Shown here one piece after another: positions 6,644 through 25,327 of a DNA stretch of 64,000 bases; the stretch's first letter is position 1; each line of letters opens with the position of its first letter. Location: assembly GCF_010119615.1 (NCBI RefSeq), contig NZ_QOVG01000002.1, positions 372,001-436,000 of the forward strand, written 5' to 3'. Source of the DNA: Pseudoxanthomonas gei. Its GTDB lineage: Bacteria > Pseudomonadota > Gammaproteobacteria > Xanthomonadales > Xanthomonadaceae. Made by a program: the position numbers and the translations under genes. The notes under the pieces were generated by a model, which saw nothing but the letters and a program-made list of their open reading frames with translations, was not told the DNA's origin and searched no databases.

Positions 6644-7483
6644 TCAGTGCGACACGAGGAGTGGCAGCCGCGCCCGGGCCAGCACCGTGCGGGTCGCGCC
6701 ACCGAGGACGAACTCGCTGATGCGGGAACGGCCGATGGCACCCATCACCAGCAGGTCGGCATCGACGGCCTGGCAGCATTCCAGCAGCACGGCCCCGGCA
6801 TCATCATTGCCGCTGCACTGCTCCAGCACGACCGGCACGTCGTGGCGCGCCAGGTGCGCCGCCATGTCGGCTCCGGGATCCTCGCCGTACGTTGCGTGCG
6901 TGCGGGCTTCGGGCACCACGACCAGGTGCACCGCTTCGCATGCAGCCAGCAGCGGGAGCGCATCGGCGATGGCTTGCGTGGCTTCGGCACCGCCGTTCCA
7001 TCCGATGACCACACGGGTGGGAATGCGTTGCCATGGCCAGTCGGTGGGAACCAGCAGGCAAGGCCGGCCAGACTCGAAGACCGCGCGCTCGGACAGGCCG
7101 AGCATGGTGATGTCGTTGTTCTGCTCTGCAGGCGGTCCCAGCACGGCCAGGTCCGCGTGCCGGGCATGCAGCATCAGTGCCTCGGCGGTCTGGTTGTTGG
7201 ACTCGCGCCACTCGGCGGTAAAGCTGCGCCGCGCCGTCAACTGTTCGAACTCGGCGCGTATGAGCTCCAGCGCAGCAGCGGTGCGTTTGCGATAGGTCGC
7301 CAGCATGTCGGGCAGGGCAGCGCCGATGGCAAACCCCGCATGCGGGTTGAGCACCAGTGGCTCGGAGACGAAAGTGGCGATCAGGTGCGCCTGCGACCGT
7401 TTGGCCAGCGCCGCTGCATAGGCAAGGCGATCGCTGCATCCTGGTCCTGCTTCGAGGAAAACGACGAGATCCCTGAGTGACAT
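6644..7483 (-). CDS. Tandem universal stress protein (UspA family)
   Basis: Soluble cytoplasmic protein of 279 residues made of two UspA domains. The second domain ends in a near-complete nucleotide-binding signature (MGAIGRSRISEFVLGGATRT, GxxG-9x-G pattern), and the first begins LRDLVVFLEAGPG. The start at 7483 is preceded on the minus strand by GAAGGTGG, a good ribosome-binding site. Tandem Usp proteins are often induced by low oxygen or stationary phase, and a perfect FNR/Anr-type palindrome lies 57 nt upstream, supporting anaerobic control. The gene stands alone between the integrase scar and a long gene-free stretch. Confidence 0.88.
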   Translation of the reverse strand: MSLRDLVVFLEAGPGCSDRLAYAAALAKRSQAHLIATFVSEPLVLNPHAGFAIGAALPDMLATYRKRTAAALELIRAEFEQLTARRSFTAEWRESNNQTAEALMLHARHADLAVLGPPAEQNNDITMLGLSERAVFESGRPCLLVPTDWPWQRIPTRVVIGWNGGAEATQAIADALPLLAACEAVHLVVVPEARTHATYGEDPGADMAAHLARHDVPVVLEQCSGNDDAGAVLLECCQAVDADLLVMGAIGRSRISEFVLGGATRTVLARARLPLLVSH

Positions 7484-7539
7484 TCCACCTTCCTCCGCGC
7501 AGCCTGCATTGCACTATCCCGCCGGCGGCGCGAGGCGCT

Positions 7540-7553
7540 TTGATCTCGATCAA
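7540..7553. promoter_or_regulatory. FNR/Anr-like operator upstream of usp
   Basis: TTGATCTCGATCAA is an exact TTGAT-N4-ATCAA palindrome, the consensus of FNR/Anr oxygen-sensing regulators. Its centre is about 63 nt before the usp start codon on the minus strand, consistent with a class II site at -41.5 and a leader of about 20 nt. Confidence 0.65.
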
Positions 7554-8185
7554 GGTGGGAGCGATGCTCTGGTGATCGATGCACTGCCAGGTGCGCACGG
7601 AACACGCCAATGTGGTGTTGCGACGCAGCAGCCAGGCCGAGCCGTGTGTGACGCAAGCGGGATCAATGCTGTGTCCCACGAATGCAAGTGACCGCGCCAG
7701 GGACCCGCAGATCCAAGTCGCGCGCACGCCTGATGCGGACACCACGGGTGGCTACCACTACAGCTGGTGTACGCAAACGACGTGGATTGCAGGTGCGCAT
7801 GTCGCACGCGTCGCTAATGGCCACGTGCGCGAGAACAGCATGCTTGCCTCGCATTTCTCTGTTGCAATGAGGGAGTAAAAGCGCAAACACACTGCTTTTG
7901 CACTTGAATCGATGGCGCGTGCAAAAAATAAATGCATCGACGCCAAAGTGCCTGGACGAGTTTCAAGCAACGTCTGGACTGGATTGCCACTGCACTTGAA
8001 CGCTCATTGCGATTGGTCCGGTACGGCGGCGAAATGAACATGCATAACGTCCTGGTCGTAAAAATCCGGACCTTCTGCAGCCGATTCCCCATTGCGTATT
8101 TTTCGTTACACAACTTGTAAGTCAGACCTTGTTGCACTGCACGGTGACAAGGACATCAAAGCTTGATTAGGCTGCGCCCACTCAA

Positions 8186-8199
8186 TGTTAGCGCTACCA
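8186..8199. promoter_or_regulatory. XylR operator (xyl-box) of the receptor operon
   Basis: TGTTAGCGCTACCA here is the exact reverse complement of TGGTAGCGCTAACA, the XylR box described for xanthomonads. It is one of four such palindromes in the window. It precedes the TonB-receptor start by 317 nt. Confidence 0.85.
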
Positions 8200-8516
8200 C
8201 CGCAGCAAACGGCGGTAGCGATGACGGGTCGATGGGAGCTGGGGGCATTGCATGCGTCATTGCCGCGGGCTGAAAGACCGGTCTGGATTCCAGCGCGTTT
8301 TTTTGAGTCGCGGTCCGGAGCGGGCAGGCCATCGCCAGCGGGTGTCCCTGGGGAGGGCGCCAGATCCATCAAGGGAACCGGGAGGGGAGAGCAGATGGGA
8401 GATTTTCGATATCCAGGTATCGCGCGGAAAGCTGCTGAAGTCATGGCGGACGTTGACTCTTGTGCCGAAGGCGGAGCGCTCTCGGCAATTCACACACCAG
8501 TGCTGAGGGCACCCAA

Positions 8517-11500
8517 ATGAATCACAAGCTGAAGCGATTCAAGTCGAAAGCCATGTTCACTTTCGTGGGCGGTGCTTTCATCATCAACCCGGCGTTCGCC
8601 CAGGAAACCGAGGCGCAGGCCCAGGGCAGCACGCAGGCGACCGAGACACGACAGCAGGCCTCTGACGAGGCGACCAACCTCGATACCATCGTGGTTACCG
8701 GCATACGCGGAAGCCTTAACCAGGCCATGCAAGTCAAGCGCGATTCGGCCGGCGTGGTCGATGCGATCAGCGCCGAGGACATCGGCAAATTCCCTGACAC
8801 CAACCTGGCCGAATCGCTGCAGCGCATCACCGGCATCTCGATCGAGCGCCGCGATGGTGAAGGTGCGCAGGTGACTGCGCGTGGCTTCGGCCCCGAGTTC
8901 AACATGGTCACCCTCAATGGGCGCCAGATGCCGGGTGCGGATGCGTTCGGTGCGGCGGGACAGGTTGCCATCGGCGGCGTTGACGGCGGCACCCGTGCAT
9001 TCAATTTCGCCCAGCTCGCGGCCGAGGCCATCAACGGCATCGAGGTGTACAAGACCAGCCAGGCACAGGTCCCCAGCGGTGGCATCGGCGCCTCCATCAA
9101 TATCCTGACCGACCGGCCGTTCAACCATGAAGGCATAGTCGCCAGTGCCGGCGTCAAGGCGGTCTCCGACCAGTCACAGCCGTTCGACAACGACATCACC
9201 CCGGAAATCTCGGGGATCTTCAGCTACACCAATCCCGACAAGACCTTTGGCTTCGGCATCAGCGCAAGTTCGCAGAAGCGCAAGGGTGGGTCGGTGCAGG
9301 CGACCGAGAACTACTGGAACGTGCAGCCCTGGACCGGCAGCATGCCGGGCGACCCGGTGGTAGTGAACGAACCGGCCATTGGCGACCTCTACGCGCGGCC
9401 CAACGACTTGCGCTATGCGTTCTCCGAGTTCGAGCGCGAACGCGTCAACGGCCAGGCGGTCGTGCAGTTCGCGCCGACCGACAGCCTGACCTTGACCCTG
9501 GATTACACGTACTCGACCAACGAGATCACCGAGAATCGTGGCGAGCAGGCCATGTGGTTGCAGAACAGCAACTACACCAATGTGGAGTTTGACACCGGCG
9601 GCGCGGTGGCGACCCCCGTGTACATCCGCGAGATCGCAGGCACCAAGGACTTTGGCCTGGAACAGCAGCGCACCATGCAGAAGTACAAGCTGGGTTCGCT
9701 GGGATTCAATGCGGTCTGGGACGTCAGCGACGACTTCCGCTTGAGCTTCGACGCCCACAACTCGAAGAACGAGAGCCGGCCCAACGACCCGCTTACTGGT
9801 GGTGGTTCCATCTTCGCGAGTATCGCCGGCACCAACAATTGCACCACCGGCCCGCACTGCGGCGGGACGTGGGTACAGGAGTTGTTCTTCAACAACGGCC
9901 TGCCAGTTGGCTCGCAGACCTGGTATCCCACCACGCCGGACGCAGAGGCCGGCACCAACGGGGTGGTCAACCCCGGCTTTGTCGAGGGCGAGATCGGCTC
10001 GCAGGTGCTGCGCGTCAACGCGCAGACCCAAGTCAGTGAAATCAAGCAGGGTCGCATCGACGGCGAATGGAGCTTTGAGCGCGGCCGTTTCCAGTTCGGC
10101 GTGGACAGCTCGAAGCAGTCGACCCATCGGCTGCAGGCGGCGGAGAATTACCAGACCCTGGGGGACTGGGGCGTGGCCAACGTGGATGAGGACGTTGCCA
10201 ATGGCCTGATGGACCTCCTGCAGCCGGTCGACATCGTTGGCCTGTTCGACGACTACAGCATCGGCAGCAGCAATGGAGCGTGGCGGGGCAACGCCGGTCA
10301 GCTGGCGCAATGGGCCGCAGACAACTACGGCGTCCCCATTGGCGTGAGTTCGCAGAACTCCGCCGACAATCGTGTCGAGGAGAACACCAAATCAGCGTAT
10401 ATGCAGGTGCAGCTGGACGGCGAGCTGGGTGGCATGCGCACCAACACCCGCATCGGTGTGCGCTACGAGACCACCAAGGTGGTTTCCACCTCGGTCATCG
10501 CAATACCCGAGGCTGTGGAATGGCAAGCCAACAACGATTTCAGGATCGTGCTGTCCGATGAGCAGCAGCCTTTCAGCGAGAAGTCCAGTTACAGCTACGT
10601 CCTTCCAAACCTGGACTTCAGCATCGACTTCACGGACACGCTGAAAGGTCGCGTATCGTTCGGAAAGAGCATCGCGCGCGCACCTTTCGGCAATCTGTAT
10701 GCCGGCCCCGGGGCACAGCAACCGTTTGGTTCGGTATTGCTCGATCCCTCGGTCCGGGCGAGCGGCAGCGCGCAGAACCCGCGCCTGAAACCCCTGGAAT
10801 CGGACAACCTGGACCTGGCGTTGGAGTGGTACTTCGCAGATGCCAGCTATTTGTCGGTGACCTACTGGAACAAGTCGGTAGCCAACTTCATCGGCAACAC
10901 GGTGGCGCAGGAATCGCTGTATGGGTTGACAGATCCCACTTCCGGACCTGACGCGCAAGCGGCGCTGGCCTTCCTCCAGAGTGCGGCCTGCGTTACCCAG
11001 GTGGGAGCGGCCAATGCCGCCGCCTGCTCGGCCAATGACACCTCGCTGTTCACTGCCCTGGCGCTGCTGCGCAACGATCCCGCGGGGCTCGCAGCCTTCA
11101 ATGGGACGGGTGCGCAGCAACTGGCGACCGAAACCGCCTACAACCTTGTAGGTGAGGCCGACGACCCCCTGTACCTGTTCAACGTGAACCGGCCGGTCAA
11201 CCAGAACCAGGCCAAGCTGCATGGACTGGAAGTGGGTGGCCAGTACTTCTTCGGAGATTCGGGCTTTGGCATCCTCGCCAACTACACCTCGGTCAACGGC
11301 GATGTGGGCTACAACAACGCGGGCGATCCAGGTATCGACCAGTTCGCGTTGACCGGCCTCAGCGATACGGCCAACGCCATGTTCATGTATGAAAAGTTTG
11401 GCTGGTCAGTGCGCCTGGCGTGGAACTGGCGCGACGAGTACCTGATCCTCGCCAACCAGGGTGCCAGCCGCAATCCCTACTATGTGGAGAAGTACGAACA

Positions 11501-11669
11501 GTGGGACCTGAGCGTCAACTACGCGCTCGACGACCACTGGTCGTTCGGCCTGGAGGCGATCAACCTCACCGGCGAGGACGTGCGCTGGCACGCCCGCACC
11601 AGCGAGCAGATCGTCAAGCTGGCCGACCAGAGCCCGCGCTACATGCTTGGGGTACGTTACAAGTTCTGA
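8517..11669 (+). CDS. TonB-dependent receptor, probable xylo-oligosaccharide transporter
   Basis: Outer-membrane receptor of 1050 residues. A signal peptide (ending near NPAFAQ, residue 28) is followed by a TonB box-like segment DTIVVTGIR, a plug domain (SAEDIGKFPDTNLAESLQRI, GARGFG-type stretch, VTLNGRQMPG) and a beta-barrel ending in the aromatic C-terminal residue YKF. Length and motifs fit the large carbohydrate TonB receptors (TIGR01782 type) of Xanthomonas and Caulobacter. The frame extends to 8460, but the ATG at 8517 starts the signal peptide and follows GCTGAGGG. Substrate is inferred from the upstream xyl-box and the neighbouring xylanolytic genes. Confidence 0.93.
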   Translation: MNHKLKRFKSKAMFTFVGGAFIINPAFAQETEAQAQGSTQATETRQQASDEATNLDTIVVTGIRGSLNQAMQVKRDSAGVVDAISAEDIGKFPDTNLAESLQRITGISIERRDGEGAQVTARGFGPEFNMVTLNGRQMPGADAFGAAGQVAIGGVDGGTRAFNFAQLAAEAINGIEVYKTSQAQVPSGGIGASINILTDRPFNHEGIVASAGVKAVSDQSQPFDNDITPEISGIFSYTNPDKTFGFGISASSQKRKGGSVQATENYWNVQPWTGSMPGDPVVVNEPAIGDLYARPNDLRYAFSEFERERVNGQAVVQFAPTDSLTLTLDYTYSTNEITENRGEQAMWLQNSNYTNVEFDTGGAVATPVYIREIAGTKDFGLEQQRTMQKYKLGSLGFNAVWDVSDDFRLSFDAHNSKNESRPNDPLTGGGSIFASIAGTNNCTTGPHCGGTWVQELFFNNGLPVGSQTWYPTTPDAEAGTNGVVNPGFVEGEIGSQVLRVNAQTQVSEIKQGRIDGEWSFERGRFQFGVDSSKQSTHRLQAAENYQTLGDWGVANVDEDVANGLMDLLQPVDIVGLFDDYSIGSSNGAWRGNAGQLAQWAADNYGVPIGVSSQNSADNRVEENTKSAYMQVQLDGELGGMRTNTRIGVRYETTKVVSTSVIAIPEAVEWQANNDFRIVLSDEQQPFSEKSSYSYVLPNLDFSIDFTDTLKGRVSFGKSIARAPFGNLYAGPGAQQPFGSVLLDPSVRASGSAQNPRLKPLESDNLDLALEWYFADASYLSVTYWNKSVANFIGNTVAQESLYGLTDPTSGPDAQAALAFLQSAACVTQVGAANAAACSANDTSLFTALALLRNDPAGLAAFNGTGAQQLATETAYNLVGEADDPLYLFNVNRPVNQNQAKLHGLEVGGQYFFGDSGFGILANYTSVNGDVGYNNAGDPGIDQFALTGLSDTANAMFMYEKFGWSVRLAWNWRDEYLILANQGASRNPYYVEKYEQWDLSVNYALDDHWSFGLEAINLTGEDVRWHARTSEQIVKLADQSPRYMLGVRYKF

Positions 11670-11706
11670 GTCCTGCGATACATCCTCCCCGGATGTCGCG
11701 TGGCGG

Positions 11707-11734
11707 GACCGCTGCGAAAGCAGCGGTCTCTTTT
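11707..11734 (+). terminator. Strong terminator between receptor and SapC gene
   Basis: GACCGCTGC (11707-11715), loop GAAA, GCAGCGGTC (11720-11728), then TCTTTT: a perfect 9-bp stem with a GNRA loop and T-rich tail. It lies 38 nt after the receptor stop and 100 nt before the next gene, so it should reduce or end transcription into the downstream genes. Confidence 0.85.
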
Positions 11735-11834: not shown

Positions 11835-12593
11835 ATGGCCCGATACGAACTCCTCAACAACGTCACCCACAAGGAGCTGCGCGTAGCCACGCGATTCGGC
11901 CCGGAATTCGGCGACGACATCGGCATGCTGCAGGCATTCCCCAGCGAATATGCCGAGCTGCAGAGGGAATATCCGATCTTCTTCCGCAAGGACCGCGAAA
12001 GTGGCCAGTGGCAGTCGGTGGCCTTGCTGGGCTTCGAGCAGCGTGAAAACCTGTTCCTGCGCGACGGGCGCTGGAACGCGGCCTATCTTCCCGGCGCCGT
12101 CGCCAAGGGACCGTTCCTGATCGGATTCCAGGAACAGCGCATCGATGGAGAACTGCGCAAGGAGCCGGTCATCCATGTGGACGTGGAGCACCCGCGCGTC
12201 AGTTTCAGCGACGGCGAGCCCGCCTTCCTGCCGCAGGGAGGAAACAGCGCCTATCTTGAACACATCGCGGGCGTGTTGCGGGGCATCCGCGATGGTGCTG
12301 AATTCGGTGCGGCCATGTTCGCCGCCTTTGATTCGCTGGGCCTCATCCAGCCGGTCAACCTGGACGTGCAGCTCGACGACAGGCATCGGGTCAGCGTCAG
12401 CGGCCTTTATGGAATCGACCGCGAGGCGCTGGGCGCGCTGGAGGCCGGACCGTTGCGGCAGCTCAACCAGGCAGGATTCCTGGAAGGCGCGTATCTGGTC
12501 TTGGCTTCACTGCACAACATGCGCCGGTTGATGGCCGAAAAGCAGCGGCGCCTGCGGGAGCAGGACGGGCCGGCAACCGAACGGGCGGCGTGA
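11835..12593 (+). CDS. SapC family protein
   Basis: Protein of 252 residues of the SapC family (named after a Campylobacter S-layer-associated gene; biochemical role unknown). It opens MARYELLNNVTHKELRV, followed by YPIFFRKD and the FLRDGRWNAAYLPG region typical of the family. No signal peptide is seen. The frame runs back to 11700, across the terminator, but the conserved N-terminus begins at the ATG at 11835. It is the first of four genes that repeatedly accompany carbohydrate TonB receptors in xanthomonads and caulobacters; its stop overlaps the next start (GTGA). Confidence 0.88.
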   Translation: MARYELLNNVTHKELRVATRFGPEFGDDIGMLQAFPSEYAELQREYPIFFRKDRESGQWQSVALLGFEQRENLFLRDGRWNAAYLPGAVAKGPFLIGFQEQRIDGELRKEPVIHVDVEHPRVSFSDGEPAFLPQGGNSAYLEHIAGVLRGIRDGAEFGAAMFAAFDSLGLIQPVNLDVQLDDRHRVSVSGLYGIDREALGALEAGPLRQLNQAGFLEGAYLVLASLHNMRRLMAEKQRRLREQDGPATERAA

Positions 12594-13621
12594 CCGCGAT
12601 GAATGAGGGGCCAGCCAGCATCCGCGTGATCGAGGGCTGTCGTGGTGATGCCCTGCCGCTGGATGAACTGTTGTCCTCCGGTGAGCCGGCAATATTGAAA
12701 GGCGTTGTGCGTGACTGGGCCCTGGTGGGCGCAGGACGGCAGTCCAGACAGGCAGCGATGGACTACCTGCGCGGTTTCGACGCAGGAAAGCCGCTGCAGT
12801 ATTCCTTTGGTGATCCGGAGATTGCCGGGCGTCCGTTCTACAACGACGACTTCACCGAATTGAATTTCGAAGTCCGGCGCGGCGGCCTGGGCCAGGTCCT
12901 GGATGCGATTTCCGCGCACGTGGACGATCCCGCTCCGCCCACGTATTACGTGGCGTCATTGCTGGTCGACGGCGACCTGCCGGGCTTTCGCGAACACAAC
13001 GACCTGGACCTTGCAGGAAGTGGCGTGCAGGCGCCGCCCAGTATCTGGATCGGAAACCGGGTGGTGGCGTCCTGCCATTTCGACGCACCCAACAACCTGG
13101 CCTGCTGCGCGGTAGGCCGGCGCCGGTTCACGCTGTTTCCGCCGGAGCAGATTTCCAATCTCTATCCCGGTCCACTGGAGCCGACACCCGGTGGCCAGGT
13201 GGTCAGCGTGGTGGATTTCTCCAACCCTGATTACGGGCGTTACCCACGGTTTCGCCAGGCGTTGGCCGCGGCCCAGGGCGCGGAGCTCGAAGCGGGTGAC
13301 GCACTCTTCATCCCCAGCATGTGGTGGCACCACGTCCAGAGCCTGGAACCGTTCAACGTGCTGGTAAATTACTGGTGGAGCAGCATGCCGGCCTACATCC
13401 CGGCGCCGCTGCAGGCGCTGCAACATGCGCTGTGGACCATCCGCGACCGGCCCGAGCAGGAAAAACAGGCCTGGCGCGAGGTGTTTGAACATTACGTATT
13501 CGGACCCCGCGAACAGGCGGGTGAACACCTGCCCGCGGCAGCACGCGGTCCGTTGGGTCCGGTGGACGAAACGCTGGCACGCCGGCTTCGCGCGATGCTG
13601 ATTGGCAAGCTCAACCGCTGA
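12590..13621 (+). CDS. Cupin/JmjC-like (cupin_8) putative 2-oxoglutarate oxygenase
   Basis: Protein of about 343 residues resembling the cupin_8/JmjC-fold Fe(II) dioxygenases. Visible features are the HxD iron ligands in SCHFDAPNNLACC, the FTLFPPEQISNLYPGPL strand turn and a distal His in IPSMWWHHVQSL. Family members hydroxylate proteins or small molecules; the substrate here is unknown. The GTG start at 12590 overlaps the SapC stop by 4 nt; an ATG at 12599 in the same frame is an alternative. It lies in an apparent operon between SapC and the tryptophan-halogenase-like gene. Confidence 0.82.
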   Translation: MTAMNEGPASIRVIEGCRGDALPLDELLSSGEPAILKGVVRDWALVGAGRQSRQAAMDYLRGFDAGKPLQYSFGDPEIAGRPFYNDDFTELNFEVRRGGLGQVLDAISAHVDDPAPPTYYVASLLVDGDLPGFREHNDLDLAGSGVQAPPSIWIGNRVVASCHFDAPNNLACCAVGRRRFTLFPPEQISNLYPGPLEPTPGGQVVSVVDFSNPDYGRYPRFRQALAAAQGAELEAGDALFIPSMWWHHVQSLEPFNVLVNYWWSSMPAYIPAPLQALQHALWTIRDRPEQEKQAWREVFEHYVFGPREQAGEHLPAAARGPLGPVDETLARRLRAMLIGKLNR

Positions 13622-13672
13622 GCGGGAAGCGGACATGCGCCATGCGCATCCATTGCAGAAGGGGAAGTCGAC

Positions 13673-15193
13673 GTGGATAAGGGCCAGATTCGCAAAGTGG
13701 TGATCGCCGGCGGTGGCACGGCCGGCTGGCTTGCCGCCTGCGCGCTATCGCACCAGTTCCGCGAACGCCTGGACATCACCCTGGTGGAGTCCGAACAGAT
13801 CGGCACCGTAGGGGTCGGCGAATCGACGGTGCCGCCTATCCGCACCTTCCATCGTTTCCTGCAGATCGACGAGCCGGATTTCCTGCGCGCGGTGGCCGGC
13901 ACCTTCAAGCTTTCCATTTCCTTCGAGAACTGGCGCCGTCCCGGCGATCGTTTCATCCACCCCTTCGGCACCACCGGACAGGGCACGCTGGCCTGTGCCT
14001 TCCATCATTTCTGGTTGGACAGCCTGCGCCGCGGCATGCCTTCGGAACTGGGTGATTTCTGCCTGGAAACACTGGCCTCACGGGTGGACCGGTTCTCGCT
14101 GGGGGAGCAGTCCCAGGTAAATTATGCCTACCACTTCGATGCGGGGCTCTATGCGCGCTTCCTGCGAAGCATCGCCGAGGGCTACGGGCTCAAGCGCGTG
14201 GAAGGCAAGATCCGCGAGGTTCGGCAGCACGCCGATTCCGGCTTCGTGGAATCGCTGGTGCTGGAAGACGGGCAGGTGCTCGAAGGCGACCTGTTCATCG
14301 ACTGCACCGGCTTTCGCGGCCTGCTCATTGAGCAGGCCCTGCATACCGGCTACGAAGACTGGAACAACTGGCTGCCCAGCGACCGCGCGGTGGCCGTGCA
14401 GACCGAACCAGTCGGTCCGCCGGTGCCCTACACGCGTGCGATCGCGCACGAAGCCGGCTGGCGCTGGCATATCCCGCTGCAGCATCGCGTCGGTTGCGGG
14501 CTGGTTTTCTCCAGCCGCCACATGTCCGATGACGAGGCCACCGCCAAGTTGTTGCGTGACGTCGGCGCGCCGCCGATCCGCGACCCCTGGCTGGTGCCGT
14601 TCCGCACCGGGCGCAGGCTGAAAGCCTGGAACAGGAACGTGGTGTCGCTGGGTCTGGCCAGTGGTTTCATCGAGCCGCTGGAATCGACCAGCATCCACCT
14701 GGCGATCAGCTCGGTGTTCAGGCTGATCCAGCTGTTTCCTTTCGATGGCATTGCACCGAGCCTGGTCGACCTGTTCAACGACGTCAGCCGTTCGGAAATG
14801 GAACACGTGCGCGATTTCATCATCCTGCACTACCACGCCAACCAGCGCGACGAACCGATGTGGAAGGAATGTCGCGAGATGGAGCTGCCGGAATCGCTGG
14901 ACATGCGTCTGCGTGCCTGGCGTGAACGCGCGCACGCCTGGCAGGGTGCTGACGAATTGTTCCGTGTCGATTCGTGGACTCACGTGCTGCTGGGGCAGGG
15001 CATCATGCCCGGCGAGCATCACCCGCTGGCGCGCGCGTTGTCAGAGCAGGACATGCGCAGGTTGCTTGACTCGCTTCGCCAGCCCATCGAACGCGCGGTG
15101 GGGCAGATGCCATCGCAGCAGGAATTCATCGAGCGCTACTGCAAGGCGCCCCCCGCCGTCTGGGGCGCCCGTGCCCCGGCTGCGATGGCCTAG
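13673..15193 (+). CDS. Tryptophan 7-halogenase family flavoprotein
   Basis: FAD-dependent halogenase-like enzyme of 506 residues. It has the dinucleotide-binding GGGTAGW near residues 12-18, the WxWxIP signature as WRWHIP (263-268), a Lys at residue 79 (GTFKLSISF) that matches the catalytic Lys79 of PrnA, and the FIEPLEST segment (Glu334/Glu337) carrying the catalytic Glu region. All key residues therefore appear intact. The GTG start follows GGGGAAG. Sugar-locus relatives are common in xanthomonads but their substrate is not established; free tryptophan is only one possibility. It is the third gene of the receptor-linked quartet. Confidence 0.9.
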   Translation: MDKGQIRKVVIAGGGTAGWLAACALSHQFRERLDITLVESEQIGTVGVGESTVPPIRTFHRFLQIDEPDFLRAVAGTFKLSISFENWRRPGDRFIHPFGTTGQGTLACAFHHFWLDSLRRGMPSELGDFCLETLASRVDRFSLGEQSQVNYAYHFDAGLYARFLRSIAEGYGLKRVEGKIREVRQHADSGFVESLVLEDGQVLEGDLFIDCTGFRGLLIEQALHTGYEDWNNWLPSDRAVAVQTEPVGPPVPYTRAIAHEAGWRWHIPLQHRVGCGLVFSSRHMSDDEATAKLLRDVGAPPIRDPWLVPFRTGRRLKAWNRNVVSLGLASGFIEPLESTSIHLAISSVFRLIQLFPFDGIAPSLVDLFNDVSRSEMEHVRDFIILHYHANQRDEPMWKECREMELPESLDMRLRAWRERAHAWQGADELFRVDSWTHVLLGQGIMPGEHHPLARALSEQDMRRLLDSLRQPIERAVGQMPSQQEFIERYCKAPPAVWGARAPAAMA

Positions 15194-15210
15194 ACGAAGC
15201 CGGGACGCCC

Positions 15211-15909
15211 ATGCTGCTCGAACACCATCCCGGCCTGCGCGTCAGCAAGCTTTCCCTCGGCAGCGAGGGAGCGCCATTGCTGGTCATCGACAACCTGGTT
15301 GCCGATCCGGAACGCCTGGCGCGCAAGGCAGCACGCAGCCAGTTCGTTGCGCAGGCGTCGATGTTTCCGGGCATCCGGGCGCCGGCACCGCTTTCCTACC
15401 AGTACTTCCTTGAGACGACGTTGAACCCGCTGCTGGAGGAATGCTTCAGCATGCAGCCGGGCCGCTTCGTCTTCCCGATGTGCCATTTCTCCCTGGTGAC
15501 CTTGCCGCCCGGCAAGCTGGAATTCCTGCAGCGCGTCCCGCACATCGACTCGGTGAGCGCCGACGGCCTGGCCAGCGTGCACTACCTGTTCCACGGGGAC
15601 TGGGGTGGCACCGACTTCTACCGCCACAGGCGCAGCGGCTTCGAGTCCATAGACCTGGCGCGCCGGGAATCCTATTTCCAATGCCTGGAACAGCAGCGCC
15701 TGGATTCCGGCGGCCAGACGGATGGTTACATCGGCGGCGACACCAGCCTCTTCGAACGTATTGCGCAAGTACAGGGCGTGTTCAACCGCATGGTGGTGTA
15801 CCGACGCAACTCCCTGCATTCCGGCAGCATCGACAACAGCCGCGTGCCGCCACCCGATCCCATGACGGGACGCCTCTCCATCAATACCTTCATCGACGTG
15901 CTGCATTGA
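15211..15909 (+). CDS. DUF6445 family protein
   Basis: Protein of 232 residues without signal peptide, matching in outline the DUF6445 proteins found beside tryptophan-halogenase genes. A HxD pair (VPHIDS) and a later His (YRRNSLHSGSID), followed by a conserved Arg (TGRLSINTF), resemble the metal and 2-oxoglutarate ligands of prolyl-4-hydroxylase-like Fe(II) dioxygenases; this is my inference from spacing. It begins 17 nt after the halogenase and is followed after 106 nt by a GH3 gene. Function is unknown. Confidence 0.75.
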   Translation: MLLEHHPGLRVSKLSLGSEGAPLLVIDNLVADPERLARKAARSQFVAQASMFPGIRAPAPLSYQYFLETTLNPLLEECFSMQPGRFVFPMCHFSLVTLPPGKLEFLQRVPHIDSVSADGLASVHYLFHGDWGGTDFYRHRRSGFESIDLARRESYFQCLEQQRLDSGGQTDGYIGGDTSLFERIAQVQGVFNRMVVYRRNSLHSGSIDNSRVPPPDPMTGRLSINTFIDVLH

Positions 15910-16015: not shown

Positions 16016-18613
16016 ATGAAGCCAGTCCACCATTCACCTGCGGCTGCACCGCGTCTTCGTCTGCGGCGGGCAGCGCTTTTCCATGTGCTTGCCATGGTGA
16101 TTGGCGGGGTGGCCTCGGCCGCAGCCGCAGCCCAGCAGCCTGAGTCGGATCGCGTACCCGGCAATGAGACGGCGCGCGCGCATCCGGAGTTGTGGCCGGC
16201 GTTGCAATCCCCATTGGCGCCTGACCCGGCACTTGAACGGCGTGTGCGGCAGTTGTTGTCCAGAATGACCGTGGAAGAAAAAGTGGGCCAGGTGGTGCAG
16301 GGCGACATCGCCAGCGTGACCCCGGACGACGTACGCAAATACCGGCTCGGCTCGGTGCTGGCGGGCGGCAATTCCGATCCGGGCAACGACTATCGCGCCA
16401 CCGCTGCGCAATGGGTCGCGTTGGCTGACGCTTATTACGACGCGTCCATGGACATTGGTGGTGGCCACAACGCCATACCGTTGCTGTTCGGCATCGATGC
16501 GGTGCACGGCCACAACAACCTGGTGGGGGCAACGCTGTTCCCCCACAACATCGGGCTGGGTGCGGCGCGGGATCCTGAACTGCTGCGCGAGATCGCAGCC
16601 GCCACTGCGGTCGAGCTTCGCGCCACCGGCCTGGACTGGACCTTTGCACCGACGCTGGCGGTTCCGCGCGACGATCGCTGGGGGCGCACCTATGAAGGCT
16701 ATTCGGAGCATCCCGAGATCGTGGCGCTGTATGCGGAGCCGCTGGTCGAAGGCCTGCAGGGCAAGGCCAACAGCCGGTCGTTCCTGTCGCCCGAGCACGT
16801 GATCGCCACGGCCAAGCACTTCCTGGGGGACGGCGGCACGTACGAGGGCCGAGACCAGGGCGATGCAAGAATCAGCGAGCAGGAATTGCGCGACATGCAG
16901 GGCGCCGGCTATCCGCCCGCGCTGAAGGCCGGCGTGCAGGCGGTCATGGCGTCGTTCTCAAGCTGGAACGGCACGCGGATGCACGGCAACGAAAGCCTGC
17001 TGACGGAAGTGCTTAAAAAGCGCATGGGGTTTGACGGATTCGTGGTCGGCGACTGGAATGCGCAAGGCCAGATTCCGGGCTGCACCAATACCGACTGTCC
17101 CGCTGCGGTCAATGCCGGCGTGGACATGATGATGACGCCTGATACCTGGAAGGGCTATTACGAAACCACGCTCAAGCATGTGCAATCGGGGCGCATTTCG
17201 ATGCAGCGCCTGGATGATGCGGTGACCCGCATCCTCCGGGTGAAAATGCGGGCCGGCCTGTTTGAAGCCGGACGACCCTCGCGACGTCCACTTGCCGGAA
17301 ACGCAGCCCTGCTGGGCGACCCCAAGCACCGTGCCCTGGCACGGCGCGCGGTGCGCGAATCACTGGTATTGCTGAAGAACCAGGGAGGGATCCTGCCGCT
17401 CGATCCCAAGGCCAGCGTACTGGTCGCCGGCGATGGCGCCGATGACATCGGCAAGCAATCCGGTGGCTGGACCCTGACCTGGCAAGGCACTGGCCTGAAG
17501 GCGTCCGATTTCCCCAGGGCGCAATCGATCTGGTCCGGCATTGCCGAACAGGTGAGGGCTGCAGGCGGCAAGGCCACGCTGTCGGTGGACGGAAAATATT
17601 CGGCCAGGCCCGATGTGGCCGTGGTGGTGTTTGGCGAAGATCCCTATGCCGAATTCCAGGGCGACATCAAGTCGGTTGCCTACAAGCCGAATAACACGGC
17701 CGACCTGGAACTCATCAAACGCCTGAAACAGGAAGGGATTCCGGTCGTGGCCGTGTTCCTGTCGGGTCGTCCGCTGTGGGTGAACCGGGAAATCAATGCG
17801 TCCGATGCCTTCGTCGCGGCCTGGCTGCCAGGCTCGGAAGGCGGCGGCGTGGCCGATGTGCTGCTGCGCGACCGCCAAGGTAAGGTGGCCCACGATTTCA
17901 CCGGCAAGCTGTCCTACTCGTGGCCGCGCAGTGCGGCGCAGTCTCCTGTCAACGCGGGGCAAGGGGGCACTCCGCCACAGTTCGCCTACGGTTATGGCCT
18001 CAAGTACGGCCAGGATGGAAACCTTGCGGCATTGGACGAAGATCCCGGACTGGATCTCAGTGCGCTGCAGAGCGCGCGCTACTTCGAGAAGGGCGGAGTA
18101 GCCAAGGGCTGGCGCCTGCGCCTGGACCACGCCGGCGCGCCGGTCTATGTGGAGCGCGCGGGCGATACGCATGATGCCGGCATCACCGTGGTGGCCGTCG
18201 ACCACAAGGCCCAGGAAGACGCCTGGCGGTATGCATGGAAGGCGCCGGGCATTTCCAGCATCGCCTTCGTCGCGCCGGAACCGCTGGACCTCAGCCGTGA
18301 AACCAATGGCGACGTGTTGCTGGTGATGACCATGCGTATTGAAGCCACGCCAGCGGCCGACACCGCACTGTTCGTCGAATGCGGCGACAAATGCGCTGGA
18401 CGGGTGGCGGTTGGCGCGCAACTGGCGAAGTTGCCTGCCAACCAGTGGATGAGCGTGGCGCTGCCGTTGAAGTGCTTCGCCAGCGCCGGTGCCAATATGG
18501 CCAGCCTCACGGTGCCGGCAGGCATCGAATCGCTGCAGGGAAACCAGTTGGCAATCAGTGAGGTCGGCTATGGAACGGTGTCGGACCATGTGCTTGCGTG
18601 CGAGGCGCCCTGA
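16016..18613 (+). CDS. GH3 family beta-glucosidase/beta-xylosidase, exported
   Basis: Glycoside hydrolase family 3 enzyme of 865 residues with an N-terminal signal-like hydrophobic segment ending in an Ala-rich cleavage region (about residue 40). The catalytic (beta/alpha)8 domain shows LFGIDAVHGHNN, AKHFLGDGGTYEGRDQG and the nucleophile Asp in FVVGDWNAQGQ. The second domain (LVLLKNQGGILPLD ... VVFGEDPYAE) follows, and a C-terminal beta-rich extension makes it longer than minimal GH3 enzymes. GH3 enzymes remove terminal glucose or xylose; in this locus action on xylan- or glucan-derived oligosaccharides is likely but specificity cannot be read from sequence. Confidence 0.92.
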   Translation: MKPVHHSPAAAPRLRLRRAALFHVLAMVIGGVASAAAAAQQPESDRVPGNETARAHPELWPALQSPLAPDPALERRVRQLLSRMTVEEKVGQVVQGDIASVTPDDVRKYRLGSVLAGGNSDPGNDYRATAAQWVALADAYYDASMDIGGGHNAIPLLFGIDAVHGHNNLVGATLFPHNIGLGAARDPELLREIAAATAVELRATGLDWTFAPTLAVPRDDRWGRTYEGYSEHPEIVALYAEPLVEGLQGKANSRSFLSPEHVIATAKHFLGDGGTYEGRDQGDARISEQELRDMQGAGYPPALKAGVQAVMASFSSWNGTRMHGNESLLTEVLKKRMGFDGFVVGDWNAQGQIPGCTNTDCPAAVNAGVDMMMTPDTWKGYYETTLKHVQSGRISMQRLDDAVTRILRVKMRAGLFEAGRPSRRPLAGNAALLGDPKHRALARRAVRESLVLLKNQGGILPLDPKASVLVAGDGADDIGKQSGGWTLTWQGTGLKASDFPRAQSIWSGIAEQVRAAGGKATLSVDGKYSARPDVAVVVFGEDPYAEFQGDIKSVAYKPNNTADLELIKRLKQEGIPVVAVFLSGRPLWVNREINASDAFVAAWLPGSEGGGVADVLLRDRQGKVAHDFTGKLSYSWPRSAAQSPVNAGQGGTPPQFAYGYGLKYGQDGNLAALDEDPGLDLSALQSARYFEKGGVAKGWRLRLDHAGAPVYVERAGDTHDAGITVVAVDHKAQEDAWRYAWKAPGISSIAFVAPEPLDLSRETNGDVLLVMTMRIEATPAADTALFVECGDKCAGRVAVGAQLAKLPANQWMSVALPLKCFASAGANMASLTVPAGIESLQGNQLAISEVGYGTVSDHVLACEAP

Positions 18614-21879: not shown

Positions 21880-22986
21880 TCAGCCCTTATTCGCCCGCTT
21901 GCGCTTGGCAAGCGGTGCCACCGAATCACGAATGACCAGCTGATAGGGAGTCACATGGTCCACCACCATGCGCACACTGCGATCCTTGCGCCGGATGTTG
22001 CGCATCAGGATGTCGATGGCGGAGTCGGCCATGTCGGAGATGGGCTGGTGGATGGTGGTCAGTTCGGGCCACACCGTGGTCGCGGCAAAAGTGTCGTCGA
22101 ACCCGACTACCGACAGGTCGCGCGGTACATCGAGGCCCTTGCGGTGTGCGACCGAGATGACGGCAGAGGCCATGTCATCGTTGCTGGCGAAAATGGCGGT
22201 GGGCGCGAGCCGGTGCGCCAGCATTTTTTCACTGGCCTCCAGGCCGGACCGGTAGGTGTAGTAACCCTGCTCGACCAGGCTTTCGTCATGGGTGATCCCC
22301 GCCTCGGACAGGGCGGCCTGGAAGCCTTCGTAGCGGTGCGCACTGGCGGTCTGGTTGGGGTGGCCCTTGATATAGCCGATGCGGCTATGGCCCTGGGCGA
22401 TCAGGTGGGCGGTGATTTCCTTGCTGGCGCGGAAGTCATCAATCCGCACGCACGAGATCTCGTTGCTGAAACGGCCCGACGCGATCGCCACGACGGGCAC
22501 GCCGGCACTCACGAATTCCTTGATCACCGCCTTGGACTCGCAAAGCGGCGGCGGCAGGATCACGCCCGCGACCGTCTTGGCGAGCACGCGTGCCGCATTG
22601 CGCTGCTCGTCGGCGCCAAGATTGTCCCAGGTGTCGATGACCAGCTGGGCCGCGGTGCGGGCCGCGCCACTCAAGGCGCCTACCAGCAGTTCGCGAAGGT
22701 AGGCCGAGCTGGGGTTGGTGTAGATCAAGGCAATGCGGGTGTGTTGCGCAGTGGCCAGCGAGCTGGCTGCAAGGTTTGGGGTATAGCCCAGCTCCTGCAC
22801 GGCGCGCATGACGTTCTCGCGCGTGGAATCACGCACCTTGCCCTGGCTGTTCACCACGCGCGACACCGTCATCGGCGATACGCCAGCGAGCAGGGCCACT
22901 TCATCGATGGTGACGGCGCGTCCCTTCCGGCGTATCGATTTCCTGGGTTTTTCCAACGCTCCCACCTTTGCTCTGCTGCCGGCCAT
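21880..22986 (-). CDS. xylR: LacI-family repressor XylR of the xylan regulon
   Basis: Transcriptional regulator of 368 residues. The LacI helix-turn-helix lies at residues 25-46 (VTIDEVALLAGVSPMTVSRVVN) with the hinge region LGYTPNLAASSLA, followed by a periplasmic-binding-protein-like sugar domain (IFASNDDMASAVISVA, LSVVGFDDTFAATTVWPELT). The N-terminus is about 20 basic residues longer than usual. The xyl-box at 23071 lies 85 nt upstream of its start and in front of the divergent agu67A operon, so autoregulation is likely. Effector is inferred to be xylose, a xylo-oligosaccharide or a glucuronate derivative; the sequence does not decide which. Confidence 0.9.
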   Translation of the reverse strand: MAGSRAKVGALEKPRKSIRRKGRAVTIDEVALLAGVSPMTVSRVVNSQGKVRDSTRENVMRAVQELGYTPNLAASSLATAQHTRIALIYTNPSSAYLRELLVGALSGAARTAAQLVIDTWDNLGADEQRNAARVLAKTVAGVILPPPLCESKAVIKEFVSAGVPVVAIASGRFSNEISCVRIDDFRASKEITAHLIAQGHSRIGYIKGHPNQTASAHRYEGFQAALSEAGITHDESLVEQGYYTYRSGLEASEKMLAHRLAPTAIFASNDDMASAVISVAHRKGLDVPRDLSVVGFDDTFAATTVWPELTTIHQPISDMADSAIDILMRNIRRKDRSVRMVVDHVTPYQLVIRDSVAPLAKRKRANKG

Positions 22987-23070
22987 GCACGCACCGCGCG
23001 AGCGATCCGTGCATGACGCATGTAACCCGCCTCAACCGGAGTCAGGGGCCTGGCATGATGACTGCGTCGA

Positions 23071-23084
23071 TGGTAACGCTAACA
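23071..23084. promoter_or_regulatory. XylR operator (xyl-box) between xylR and agu67A
   Basis: TGGTAACGCTAACA matches the xyl-box with one change (A for G at position 6). It lies in the divergent region between xylR and the alpha-glucuronidase operon and could control both. Confidence 0.8.
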
Positions 23085-23144
23085 AGCCCATGCGGCGAGC
23101 GTGCCGGGCGCTGCAATGGGCGTGTCGCAGCCCGGGCTGGCCTA

Positions 23145-25327
23145 TTGTCCGACCCCAGCCCCGATCGCTTCTCCAGGCTGTTCGTGCTGCTGGCCTGGCT
23201 GTTCATGGCCATGTTCGCCACGCCGCGCGCACATGCAGAAGACGGTCATGAACTCTGGCTGCGCTATCGACCGTTGGCTGCCGCGGTTGCGAAGATCTAT
23301 CGATCCCAGGCCACGCAACTCATCGCCGCCCAGGACACGCCGATGCAGGCCGCAGCCCGGGCGGAATTGCAACGTGGCCTCGAGGGCTTGCTGGGGAAAG
23401 CACCGCCCGGCGTCGCTGGAATAAGCAGCGATGGCGCCATCATCATCGGCACGCCGCGTTCGTCCCCAGTTCTAGCGCGCCTTGGGCTGGACCTTGACGA
23501 CCTGGGTGGCGAGGGTTACCTGATTCGCAGCCTGCTCGTCGATGGCCGCAAAACCACAGTGATCGCGGCAAACGAAGACATAGGCACGCTTCATGGCGTT
23601 TTCCATCTGCTGCGGTTGCTGCAAACCGGTCAATCACTGGCGCACCTGGAACTGCGTGAATCGCCCCGGCTGAAATTGAGGTTGCTCGATCACTGGGACA
23701 ACCTGGATGGTTACGTGGAGCGCGGCTATGCAGGGTCCTCGATCTGGGACTGGGACACGCTGCCCGGTTACCTGGCGCCACGCTATATCGAGTACGCGCG
23801 CGCCAATGCCTCGCTGGGTATCAATGGCACGGTACTCAACAACGTAAACGCCAGCGCATTGAGCCTGAGTGCAGCCTACGTGGCCAAGGCGGCTGCGGTG
23901 GCGGGCGTTTTGCGCCCTTATGGGATCCGTGTGTTCCTCAGCGCGCGCTTCAGCGCGCCGATGGAGATCGGCGGCCTGGCCACGGCGGACCCACTGGATC
24001 CTGCAGTGCAGGCCTGGTGGCGAGCGAAGGCCGATGAAATCTATCGGGCCATTCCCGACTTTGGCGGCTTCCTGGTCAAGGCCAACTCGGAAGGGCAGCC
24101 CGGGCCCCAGGACTACCGCCGGTCGCACGCCGATGGGGCGAACCTGCTTGCCGACGCACTGGCGCCGCATGGTGGCACGGTGATGTGGCGGGCCTTCGTC
24201 TATTCCCATGAGCAGCCCGATGACCGCGCCAGACAGGCTTACGACGAATTCGTCCCGCTGGACGGCAAGTTCCGCGACAACGTGCTGGTGCAGGTCAAGA
24301 ATGGACCGGTCGACTTCCAGCCGCGCGAGCCGTTCCATCCCTTGTTCGGCGCGATGCCTGCAACGCCATGGTGATGGAATTCCAGATCACCAAGGAATAC
24401 CTGGGTTTCGCCACGCACCTGGTGTACCTGGGGCCGCTGTACGAGGAAGCCCTGCGGGCCGAAACCATGGCACGCGGCAAGGGGTCCACCGTGGCCAGGG
24501 TGATCGACGGATCACTGCATGGACACGCATTGAGCGGCATGGCCGGCGTCGCCAATATCGGTACCGACCGCAACTGGAGCGGCTCGCATTTCGACCAGGC
24601 CAACTGGTACGCGTTTGGCCGCTTGGCCTGGGATCCGGGTCTGTCCGCGCGCGACATCGCCACGGACTGGGTGAAGATGACCTTCTGCAACGACGATCGC
24701 TTCGTCGTGCCCGTGGTGGAAATGATGATGGGTTCGCGGCAGTCGGCGGTGGATTACATGACGCCGCTGGGCCTGCATCACCTGATGGGGCGCGGCCATC
24801 ACTATGGGCCGGCGCCGTGGCTTGCAGGCGGGCCACGCGCCGACTGGACCTCGGTTTACTACCATCGCGCCGACAAACACGGAATAGGTTTCGACCGTTC
24901 CCGCCACGGCAGCAATGCGGTCGCGCAGTATTTTCCGGCGGTGGCCCGCCAGTTCGACGACCTCCGGCGCGTGCCCGAGGATTACCTGCTGTGGTTCCAC
25001 CATGTCGACTGGGATTACAGGACCCGGTCGGGACGGATCCTGTGGGACGAGCTGGTGCACCGCTACACACGTGGCGTGGACTATGTGCGGACGATGCGTG
25101 GCACCTGGGAGGGCCTGGCGCCTTACGTGGACAGCGAGCGACAAGCGCAGGTGACCGCGCTACTTGTCATCCAGGAGCGCGAAGCGCAGTGGTGGCGTGA
25201 TGCCAGCATTGCCTATTTCCAGACCTTCTCGCAACGCAAGCTGCCTGCCGGTTATGCGCCGCCCGCCCATTCGCTCGCCTATTACAAGGCCCTGGAGTTT
25301 CCGGACGCACCAGGAGATGGGCGATGA
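23145..25327 (+). pseudogene. agu67A: GH67 alpha-glucuronidase, split by a frameshift
   Basis: This would encode an exported alpha-glucuronidase of about 727 residues releasing 4-O-methylglucuronate from xylo-oligosaccharides. The first frame has a signal peptide (RLFVLLAWLFMAMFATPRAHA), the family N-domain and the catalytic acids: Glu in VKANSEGQPG (codon 24090), Asp in PLDGKF (24261) and Glu in REPFHPLF (24327). It stops at TGA 24372-24374. The protein then continues in another frame from 24368 (VMEFQITKEYLGFATH...) through the whole helical C-terminal domain to 25327. One base appears missing near 24369: an extra base would read TPLVMEF. The start is uncertain; TTG 23145 and GTG 23184 both give a signal peptide, while ATG 23055 would place the operator inside the gene. 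The two frames overlap as ATGGTGATG, so two separate polypeptides are possible. Confidence 0.82.

Follow-up and report, generated by a model that had tools for sequence, protein, structure and literature searches.

A SapC, cupin, halogenase and DUF6445 gene set linked to one type of TonB-dependent receptor: a possible receptor-modification cassette in Pseudomonadota

Architecture of the locus

The window analysed here is a stretch of 64,000 nucleotides from the 3.43 Mb genome of Pseudoxanthomonas gei (contig NZ_QOVG01000002.1, positions 372,001 to 436,000). Within it, the list of open reading frames (ORFs) and profile searches place a block of four genes, encoding a SapC family protein, a Cupin_8 protein, a flavin-dependent halogenase and a DUF6445 protein, between a TonB-dependent receptor of the TIGR01782 family and a glycoside hydrolase family 3 (GH3) gene that starts at 16016, downstream of DUF6445. 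We refer to the four genes as the set or cassette; the features considered below, including putative Fe(II)/2-oxoglutarate (2OG) enzymes, are as follows.

8517..11669, forward strand: TonB-dependent receptor (TIGR01782; PF00593 and Plug domains), partner of the cassette and its proposed substrate
8910..8933, forward strand: receptor plug signature, consensus TLNGRQMP, typical of cassette-linked receptors in the alignment; putative functional element
10167..10169, forward strand: weak candidate for a modified residue, the Trp of a (D/N)W(G/S)-type loop (W570, numbered from the TTG at 8460)
11705..11730, forward strand: terminator-like hairpin in the receptor/SapC gap, 11 pairs and a T tail (terminator scan; folding compared with shuffles)
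11835..12593, forward strand: SapC family protein (PF07277; Pfam 212 bits, full length), proposed adaptor or chaperone
12590..13621, forward strand: Cupin_8 protein (Pfam 240 bits), FIH-like putative Fe(II)/2OG hydroxylase, ligands H163, D165 and H247
13673..15193, forward strand: Xcc4156/BrvH-type flavin-dependent halogenase, called halogenase B below (PF04820, 637 bits), with K79, E337 and WxWxI
15211..15909, forward strand: DUF6445 protein (Pfam 259 bits), prolyl-hydroxylase-like putative Fe(II)/2OG oxygenase, with H111, D113, H203 and R221

The receptor scores 753 bits against the NCBIfam model TIGR01782, whose curated cut-off is 310, and the Pfam scores of all four cassette proteins lie far above their own cut-offs. 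The receptor ORF (8460-11669) opens at the TTG at 8460, its likely start being the ATG at 8517; the SapC ORF opens at the GTG at 11700, the ATG at 11835 (MARYELL) being the start conserved in relatives. SapC and cupin overlap (-4 nt), and gaps of 51 and 17 nt follow between cupin and halogenase and between halogenase and DUF6445. An earlier note, made from the letters of this DNA, had described four tightly packed genes between a xylan TonB receptor and a GH3 gene, and both the coordinates and the gaps bear it out. The xylan setting is equally real, since Pfam profiles identify an FGGY kinase, a GH67 enzyme, a SASA esterase, two GH43 enzymes, a GH10 enzyme and an MFS_2 transporter nearby, together with a xylose-isomerase-like protein whose profile score is at the cut-off.

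Active sites and predicted folds of the enzymes

Residue conservation was assessed in alignments of sequences from halogenase-bearing loci, with a threshold of at least 90% of rows. The iron triad of the cupin (H163-x-D165...H247) passes this threshold among 40 rows, K79, E337, W263, W265 and I267 of the halogenase among 69 rows (65 distinct by C-terminus), and H111-x-D113...H203...R221 of DUF6445 among 39 rows (35 distinct). A second DUF6445 alignment of 20 sequences shows H111, D113 and R221 to be invariant and H203 to be present in at least 90%. The catalytic role of K79, E337 and WxWxI(P) is assigned from PMC5945002 and from motif reading; here and below, statements drawn from PMC5945002, PMC7336383, PMC8269204 and PMC11337851 refer to excerpts of those papers. 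Thus both putative oxygenases carry the Fe(II)/2OG-type ligand motifs that had been read from their sequences, HxD...H in the cupin and HxD...H...R in DUF6445, and the halogenase keeps its catalytic residues K79 and E337.

The halogenase matches positions 1-457 of the 458 in the PF04820 profile, and its best solved relatives are Xcc4156 (6y1w, E 8e-162), then 9luq, then BrvH (6frl, E 7e-138). Xcc4156 and BrvH, for both of which a peptide substrate was suggested, possess an open, solvent-exposed site and are active on indole and not on free tryptophan (PMC5945002, PMC7336383); by analogy with these relatives, the site of the window halogenase is probably open as well. Upstream of BrvH lies a further halogenase gene (PMC5945002), a feature shared with those cassettes found here that carry two halogenases. 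For the cupin the best solved relative is FIH (E 5e-20), with C2orf60 (3al5), JMJD5 and JMJD7 lower in the list. The cupin resembles FIH, JMJD5 and JMJD7 in possessing the iron triad; unlike it, they are eukaryotic, and the match to FIH lies mainly over the catalytic core, residues 159-279. From FIH as its nearest solved relative, the cupin would be expected to hydroxylate a protein side chain.

The predicted model of DUF6445 is confident (predicted local distance difference test, pLDDT, 86; predicted template modelling score, pTM, 0.87) and shows the double-stranded beta-helix fold of 2OG oxygenases with likeness to prolyl and lysyl hydroxylases, in keeping with the putative Fe(II) oxygenase of the earlier note. 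A Foldseek search with the model returned P3H1 as best match (E 3e-5) and placed PHD2 and a Pseudomonas prolyl 4-hydroxylase among the first five, while in a second structure comparison OGFOD1 came top (Z 15.5 over 177 residues, 2.8 A) with Tpa1 near it. OGFOD1, Tpa1 and PHD2 are thus the closest folds, at about 10-16% identity only and with a fold that natural-product 2OG enzymes share. SapC gave a poor model (pLDDT 59), and a structure search with it returned no match at E<=0.001. Judged from nearest solved relatives and folds, the three enzymes look protein- or peptide-directed.

Conserved linkage of the set to one receptor type

Among the genome contigs searched, 19 loci encode a close relative of DUF6445. 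The order receptor-SapC-cupin-halogenase-DUF6445 is kept in 18 of them, the nineteenth being cut by its contig, which argues that the grouping is not due to chance; the named relatives with DUF6445 belong mostly to Pseudoxanthomonas, Luteimonas, Lysobacter and Stenotrophomonas. A survey of 299 Pseudomonadota genomes, in which at most two receptor-query candidates, three TIGR01782 candidates and five halogenase candidates were scored per genome, revealed that the set accompanies this receptor type in very different bacteria. With the window receptor as query (E<=1e-80), 26 matches were found in 20 genomes, and all 26 lie beside cassette genes: 21 have them in the short flank, one has a SapC gene directly downstream, and the rest are accounted for by loci L114, L134, L135 and L143.

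The halogenases lead to the same association. Matches at E<=1e-80 occur in 36 of the 299 genomes, 33 of which are among the 48 genomes with a TIGR01782 receptor. For 99 of the 111 halogenases listed, a TonB-receptor-type gene lies within about 7 kb; this total combines 65 for which a listed receptor is no more than 6 kb away, one in L142, 26 from 21 regions (among them L245 and L247, whose receptors rest on weak profile matches of 56 and 75 bits) and seven whose neighbours were shown by Pfam, three of these being of the OMP_b-brl_4 type. We also examined 80 SapC regions (79 other Pseudomonadota loci and L087, a second locus of the window's own genome), hand-picked among the matches listed in favour of long contigs and variety. 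A halogenase is present in 22 of them, and the block in 20 of these 22 is immediately preceded by a TIGR01782-type receptor; a cupin accompanies 16 of the 20 and DUF6445 five.

The genome of the window itself contains two SapC genes and three strong halogenase matches, all of which fall within two receptor loci, the window and L087, the latter in the order receptor-halogenase-SapC-cupin-halogenase. Beyond these, contig C5 holds two ORFs that match the halogenase family weakly and in part, and a weak second DUF6445 match lies on contig C9. The earlier note had treated the set as receptor-linked and proposed a survey of its co-occurrence elsewhere; within the limit of two receptors scored per genome, every receptor of this type that was found has the linkage, and it is conserved in other genomes.

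Glycan context of the linked receptors

For the window's set, the earlier note had offered aromatic decorations of plant xylan, ferulate for example, as one possible target of the enzymes. Besides the location in a xylan locus, in vitro activity of BrvH-type halogenases on indole derivatives and not on free tryptophan (PMC5945002, PMC7336383) can be counted for such a role, as can L224, in whose fetched region two halogenases accompany a GH67 gene and no receptor was detected; this may be a xylan case that lacks a receptor. Against it stands a scan of 20 neighbouring genes from 15 other cassette loci, in which the set occurs without a xylan-specific gene. Carbohydrate-related matches were found in seven of these loci, namely GH3 and GH1 (L134), GH3 (L103, L127, L159), GH1 (L114), an MFS_2 transporter (L135) and, beside a partial set of halogenase and SapC only, a protein with agarase and carbohydrate-binding module matches (L129). 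The remaining eight gave no neighbour match or an unrelated family. The xylan locus of the window contains a GH3 gene as well, and for the other loci the glycan is judged from neighbour families. The presence of the set beside GH1, GH3 or agarase-type genes argues against a xylan-specific substrate, and we rejected the processing of xylan decorations as the main explanation; with receptors adjoining such genes instead, ferulate or another aromatic decoration finds little support as the target, and this role appears very improbable. The element that is constant across loci is the receptor.

The receptor clade and the search for a modified residue

A FastTree phylogeny of receptors was built from 70 rows, omitting matches below 350 bits or 750 aa and the copies from L061, L063 and L085, whose genes are present via longer loci. 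Of 40 linked receptors, 38 group together, while L139 and L150, which have partial sets, fall outside. The comparison receptors, taken from 20 hand-picked unlinked regions and from matches already fetched, amount to 32 rows (27 distinct) and include L139 and L150 as well as four receptors that have only some cassette genes nearby (L152, L172, L178, L180). Residues typical of the clade, numbered from the TTG at 8460, are the plug motif TLNGRQMP (N148, P158), W366, H433 and W990; W366 occurs in 38/38 clade rows against 4/32 of the others, H433 in 38/38 against 0/32 and W990 in 38/38 against 3/32. The Trp of the (D/N)W(G/S)-type loop is present in all 35 clade receptors that stand beside cupin and halogenase B and in none of the three that lack both, the latter forming one branch.

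Across 35 loci, tree distances of receptor and halogenase B correlate at 0.97, and those of the other five pairs among receptor, halogenase B, SapC and cupin at 0.88-0.94, values that are uncorrected for shared ancestry. Correlations of this size are expected for a jointly inherited operon. The genes may accordingly be carried along in the receptor operon without acting on the receptor, providing a co-inherited general stress, redox or halide function. Such an explanation has to accommodate the finding that no receptor of this type was seen to lack the set (26/26, at most two per genome) and that active-site residues are conserved across distant loci; together these observations argue for a function tied to the receptor, and we regard mere co-inheritance as unlikely.

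SapC and its other contexts

In the SapC phylogeny, 35 of 39 linked SapC proteins fall within one clade that is free of unlinked SapC (support 0.998). SapC as such was rejected as a marker of the cassette, given that 58 of the 80 SapC regions have no halogenase and that unlinked SapC lies outside the linked clade. Elsewhere, SapC stands beside an RTX-repeat protein (L093), beside another receptor (L132) and, on its own, between a SecA-like protein and a protein with weak M50/HlyD-type matches (L091). L106 and L110 each encode a giant protein (about 2600 aa, with an N-terminal LEPRVLL-type motif of the LEPR-XLL kind) that has a divergent halogenase and SapC in its vicinity; in L106 the start of an ORF resembles a radical S-adenosylmethionine enzyme by eye (CxxxCxxC). 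These two are possibly another exported-protein modification locus, and the contexts of SapC, as read from sequence, would fit a general role with exported proteins.

Such neighbours raise the alternative that the target of the cassette is some other exported protein, whose gene lies within or close to these loci and which works with the receptor, the enzymes still being protein-directed. The enzyme families suit this equally well, and the giant exported-type proteins near SapC (the RTX-repeat protein of L093 and the L106 and L110 proteins with a halogenase nearby) lend it support; in the receptor loci, however, the receptor is the one constant partner while scanned flanking genes vary, and no conserved extra ORF is seen in the receptor-SapC gap. 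We consider a different exported target to be quite unlikely.

A hairpin between receptor and SapC

The hairpin at 11705-11730 folds better than shuffled sequences (z -3.1), and a hairpin with a T-rich tail occurs in 15 of 19 orthologous receptor-SapC gaps. The terminator scan as a whole returned seven sites against 6.3 in shuffles, which is no excess, so the case for this hairpin rests on its own strength and its recurrence. Partial termination at this site would yield much receptor and little enzyme, and enzyme levels below that of the receptor would fit catalysts acting on an abundant product.

The same gap bears on an alternative in which the enzymes would instead produce or alter a small molecule, or a ribosomal peptide, to be imported or sensed by the receptor. 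Natural-product pathways commonly employ halogenases and 2OG enzymes, and the DUF6445 model matches natural-product 2OG enzymes too. Xcc4156 and BrvH, moreover, accept free indole as a substrate in vitro (PMC5945002, PMC7336383). Yet inspection by eye of 19 aligned loci, in that gap alone, revealed neither a precursor peptide nor a conserved small ORF, no scaffold-making gene is among the neighbours scanned, and the receptors adjoin differing glycan enzymes; a role in small-molecule or peptide production seems decidedly improbable.

A proposed model for receptor modification

We propose that the quartet is a modification cassette that is dedicated to the neighbouring TonB-dependent receptor and acts on it. 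We hold this receptor-maturation reading tentatively, at a probability of roughly 0.4, because co-inheritance of an operon could explain the linkage. On this model the enzymes would work in the cytoplasm, where they would meet the receptor precursor still unfolded and not yet exported. SapC may serve as an adaptor that holds or presents this precursor, the FIH-like cupin and, where present, DUF6445 would hydroxylate specific receptor residues, and an exposed aromatic side chain, most plausibly that of a tryptophan, would be the target of the open-site halogenase. Possible benefits of the modification are an adjusted binding of sugars or protection of the surface receptor from phages, bacteriocins or proteases.

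Several observations weigh against this proposal. The cytoplasmic placement is judged by eye, from four window N-termini that show no obvious signal peptide; with such N-termini the enzymes would have access to the receptor only until it is exported. Matches of the DUF6445 model include the natural-product 2OG enzymes PasI (Z 14.0), PolD (12.8), HygX and SnoN, so the fold by itself is compatible with more than one substrate class, and C2orf60 in the cupin's list of solved relatives is a tRNA hydroxylase. Within the receptor clade, DUF6445 flanks only 24 of 38 receptors, and no receptor proline in the clade alignment tracks its presence. For the (D/N)WG pattern the contrast comes from a single branch, and a similar motif occurs in some receptors without the set. 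A further Trp column, W567, seemed to follow the second halogenase, halogenase A, and proved to be a subclade trait; we rejected it as a halogenase A-linked residue, as loci without halogenase A have W567 too. More generally, linkage and shared residues could stem from common descent of one operon. Finally, 12 of the 111 halogenases have no receptor in the stretch examined, where selected large ORFs were compared with Pfam. These are found in L222, L224 (two), L235, L239, L240, L243, L244, L246, G328, L106 and L110; the G328 halogenase lies at a contig start beside SapC, and for L244 and L246 there is a receptor at a distance of about 7 and 8 kb, which places it at or past the border of the region.

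Each family in the set is already known, and the close halogenase relatives are solved enzymes. A 2020 paper states that the native substrates of BrvH/Xcc4156-type halogenases are unknown, and the word 'TonB' does not occur in the main text on either Xcc4156 or BrvH; the receptor linkage is added here, from loci of the window type. A parallel to the working model is MibH, the peptide tryptophan chlorinase of the lantibiotic NAI-107, which has a BrvH-like open site and halogenates Trp only within a peptide (PMC5945002). Unlike the window halogenase, MibH belongs to a setting of ribosomally synthesized and post-translationally modified peptides; its match to the window protein is weaker (5uao, E 9e-61), and Xcc4156 and MibH share 26% identity (PMC7336383). 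PMC11337851 reports halogenase transcripts and, apart from them, a TonB receptor; it speculates that a halogenase takes part in virus-host receptor interactions, with no gene linkage in the excerpt. The full-text literature searched, PMC8269204 included, gives no established role for the set, in agreement with the earlier note; most subscription papers lie outside this search.

Boulanger et al. (2014) reportedly placed the same kind of gene set, SapC-Pass1-halogenase, beside the N-acetylglucosamine TonB-dependent receptors of Xanthomonas. The near-constant link to one receptor clade offers a concrete and testable substrate candidate for BrvH/Xcc4156-type halogenases. It is conceivable, if rather doubtful, that an outer-membrane nutrient receptor is both halogenated and hydroxylated by a co-encoded cytoplasmic cassette, and that such receptors are the native substrates of these halogenases. 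If so, protein halogenation and FIH/PHD-type hydroxylation would extend to an outer-membrane transporter, and the role of most BrvH/Xcc4156-type halogenases in Pseudomonadota would lie with surface proteins and not with natural products. The enzymes would, in addition, be a source of peptide-halogenating biocatalysts, and the annotation of sugar-receptor loci would change.

Related loci and further observations

Halogenases, cupins or DUF6445 also occur near some receptors outside the main clade, with up to four halogenases in L180. L180, L236 and L241 each combine three to four halogenase ORFs, some of them weak partial matches, and a cupin beside a TonB receptor, with no SapC match. A third kind of 2OG enzyme is encoded in L227, where a stop-to-stop ORF at 7444-10047, found together with a halogenase and a TonB receptor, carries a C-terminal 2OG-FeII_Oxy_5 domain. 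In the window's xylan locus, the GH67 alpha-glucuronidase gene (22968-25327) is split between two frames, as ORFs 22968-24374 and 24368-25327; its halves are contiguous in relatives such as L040, which points to a frameshift or a sequencing error in the window.

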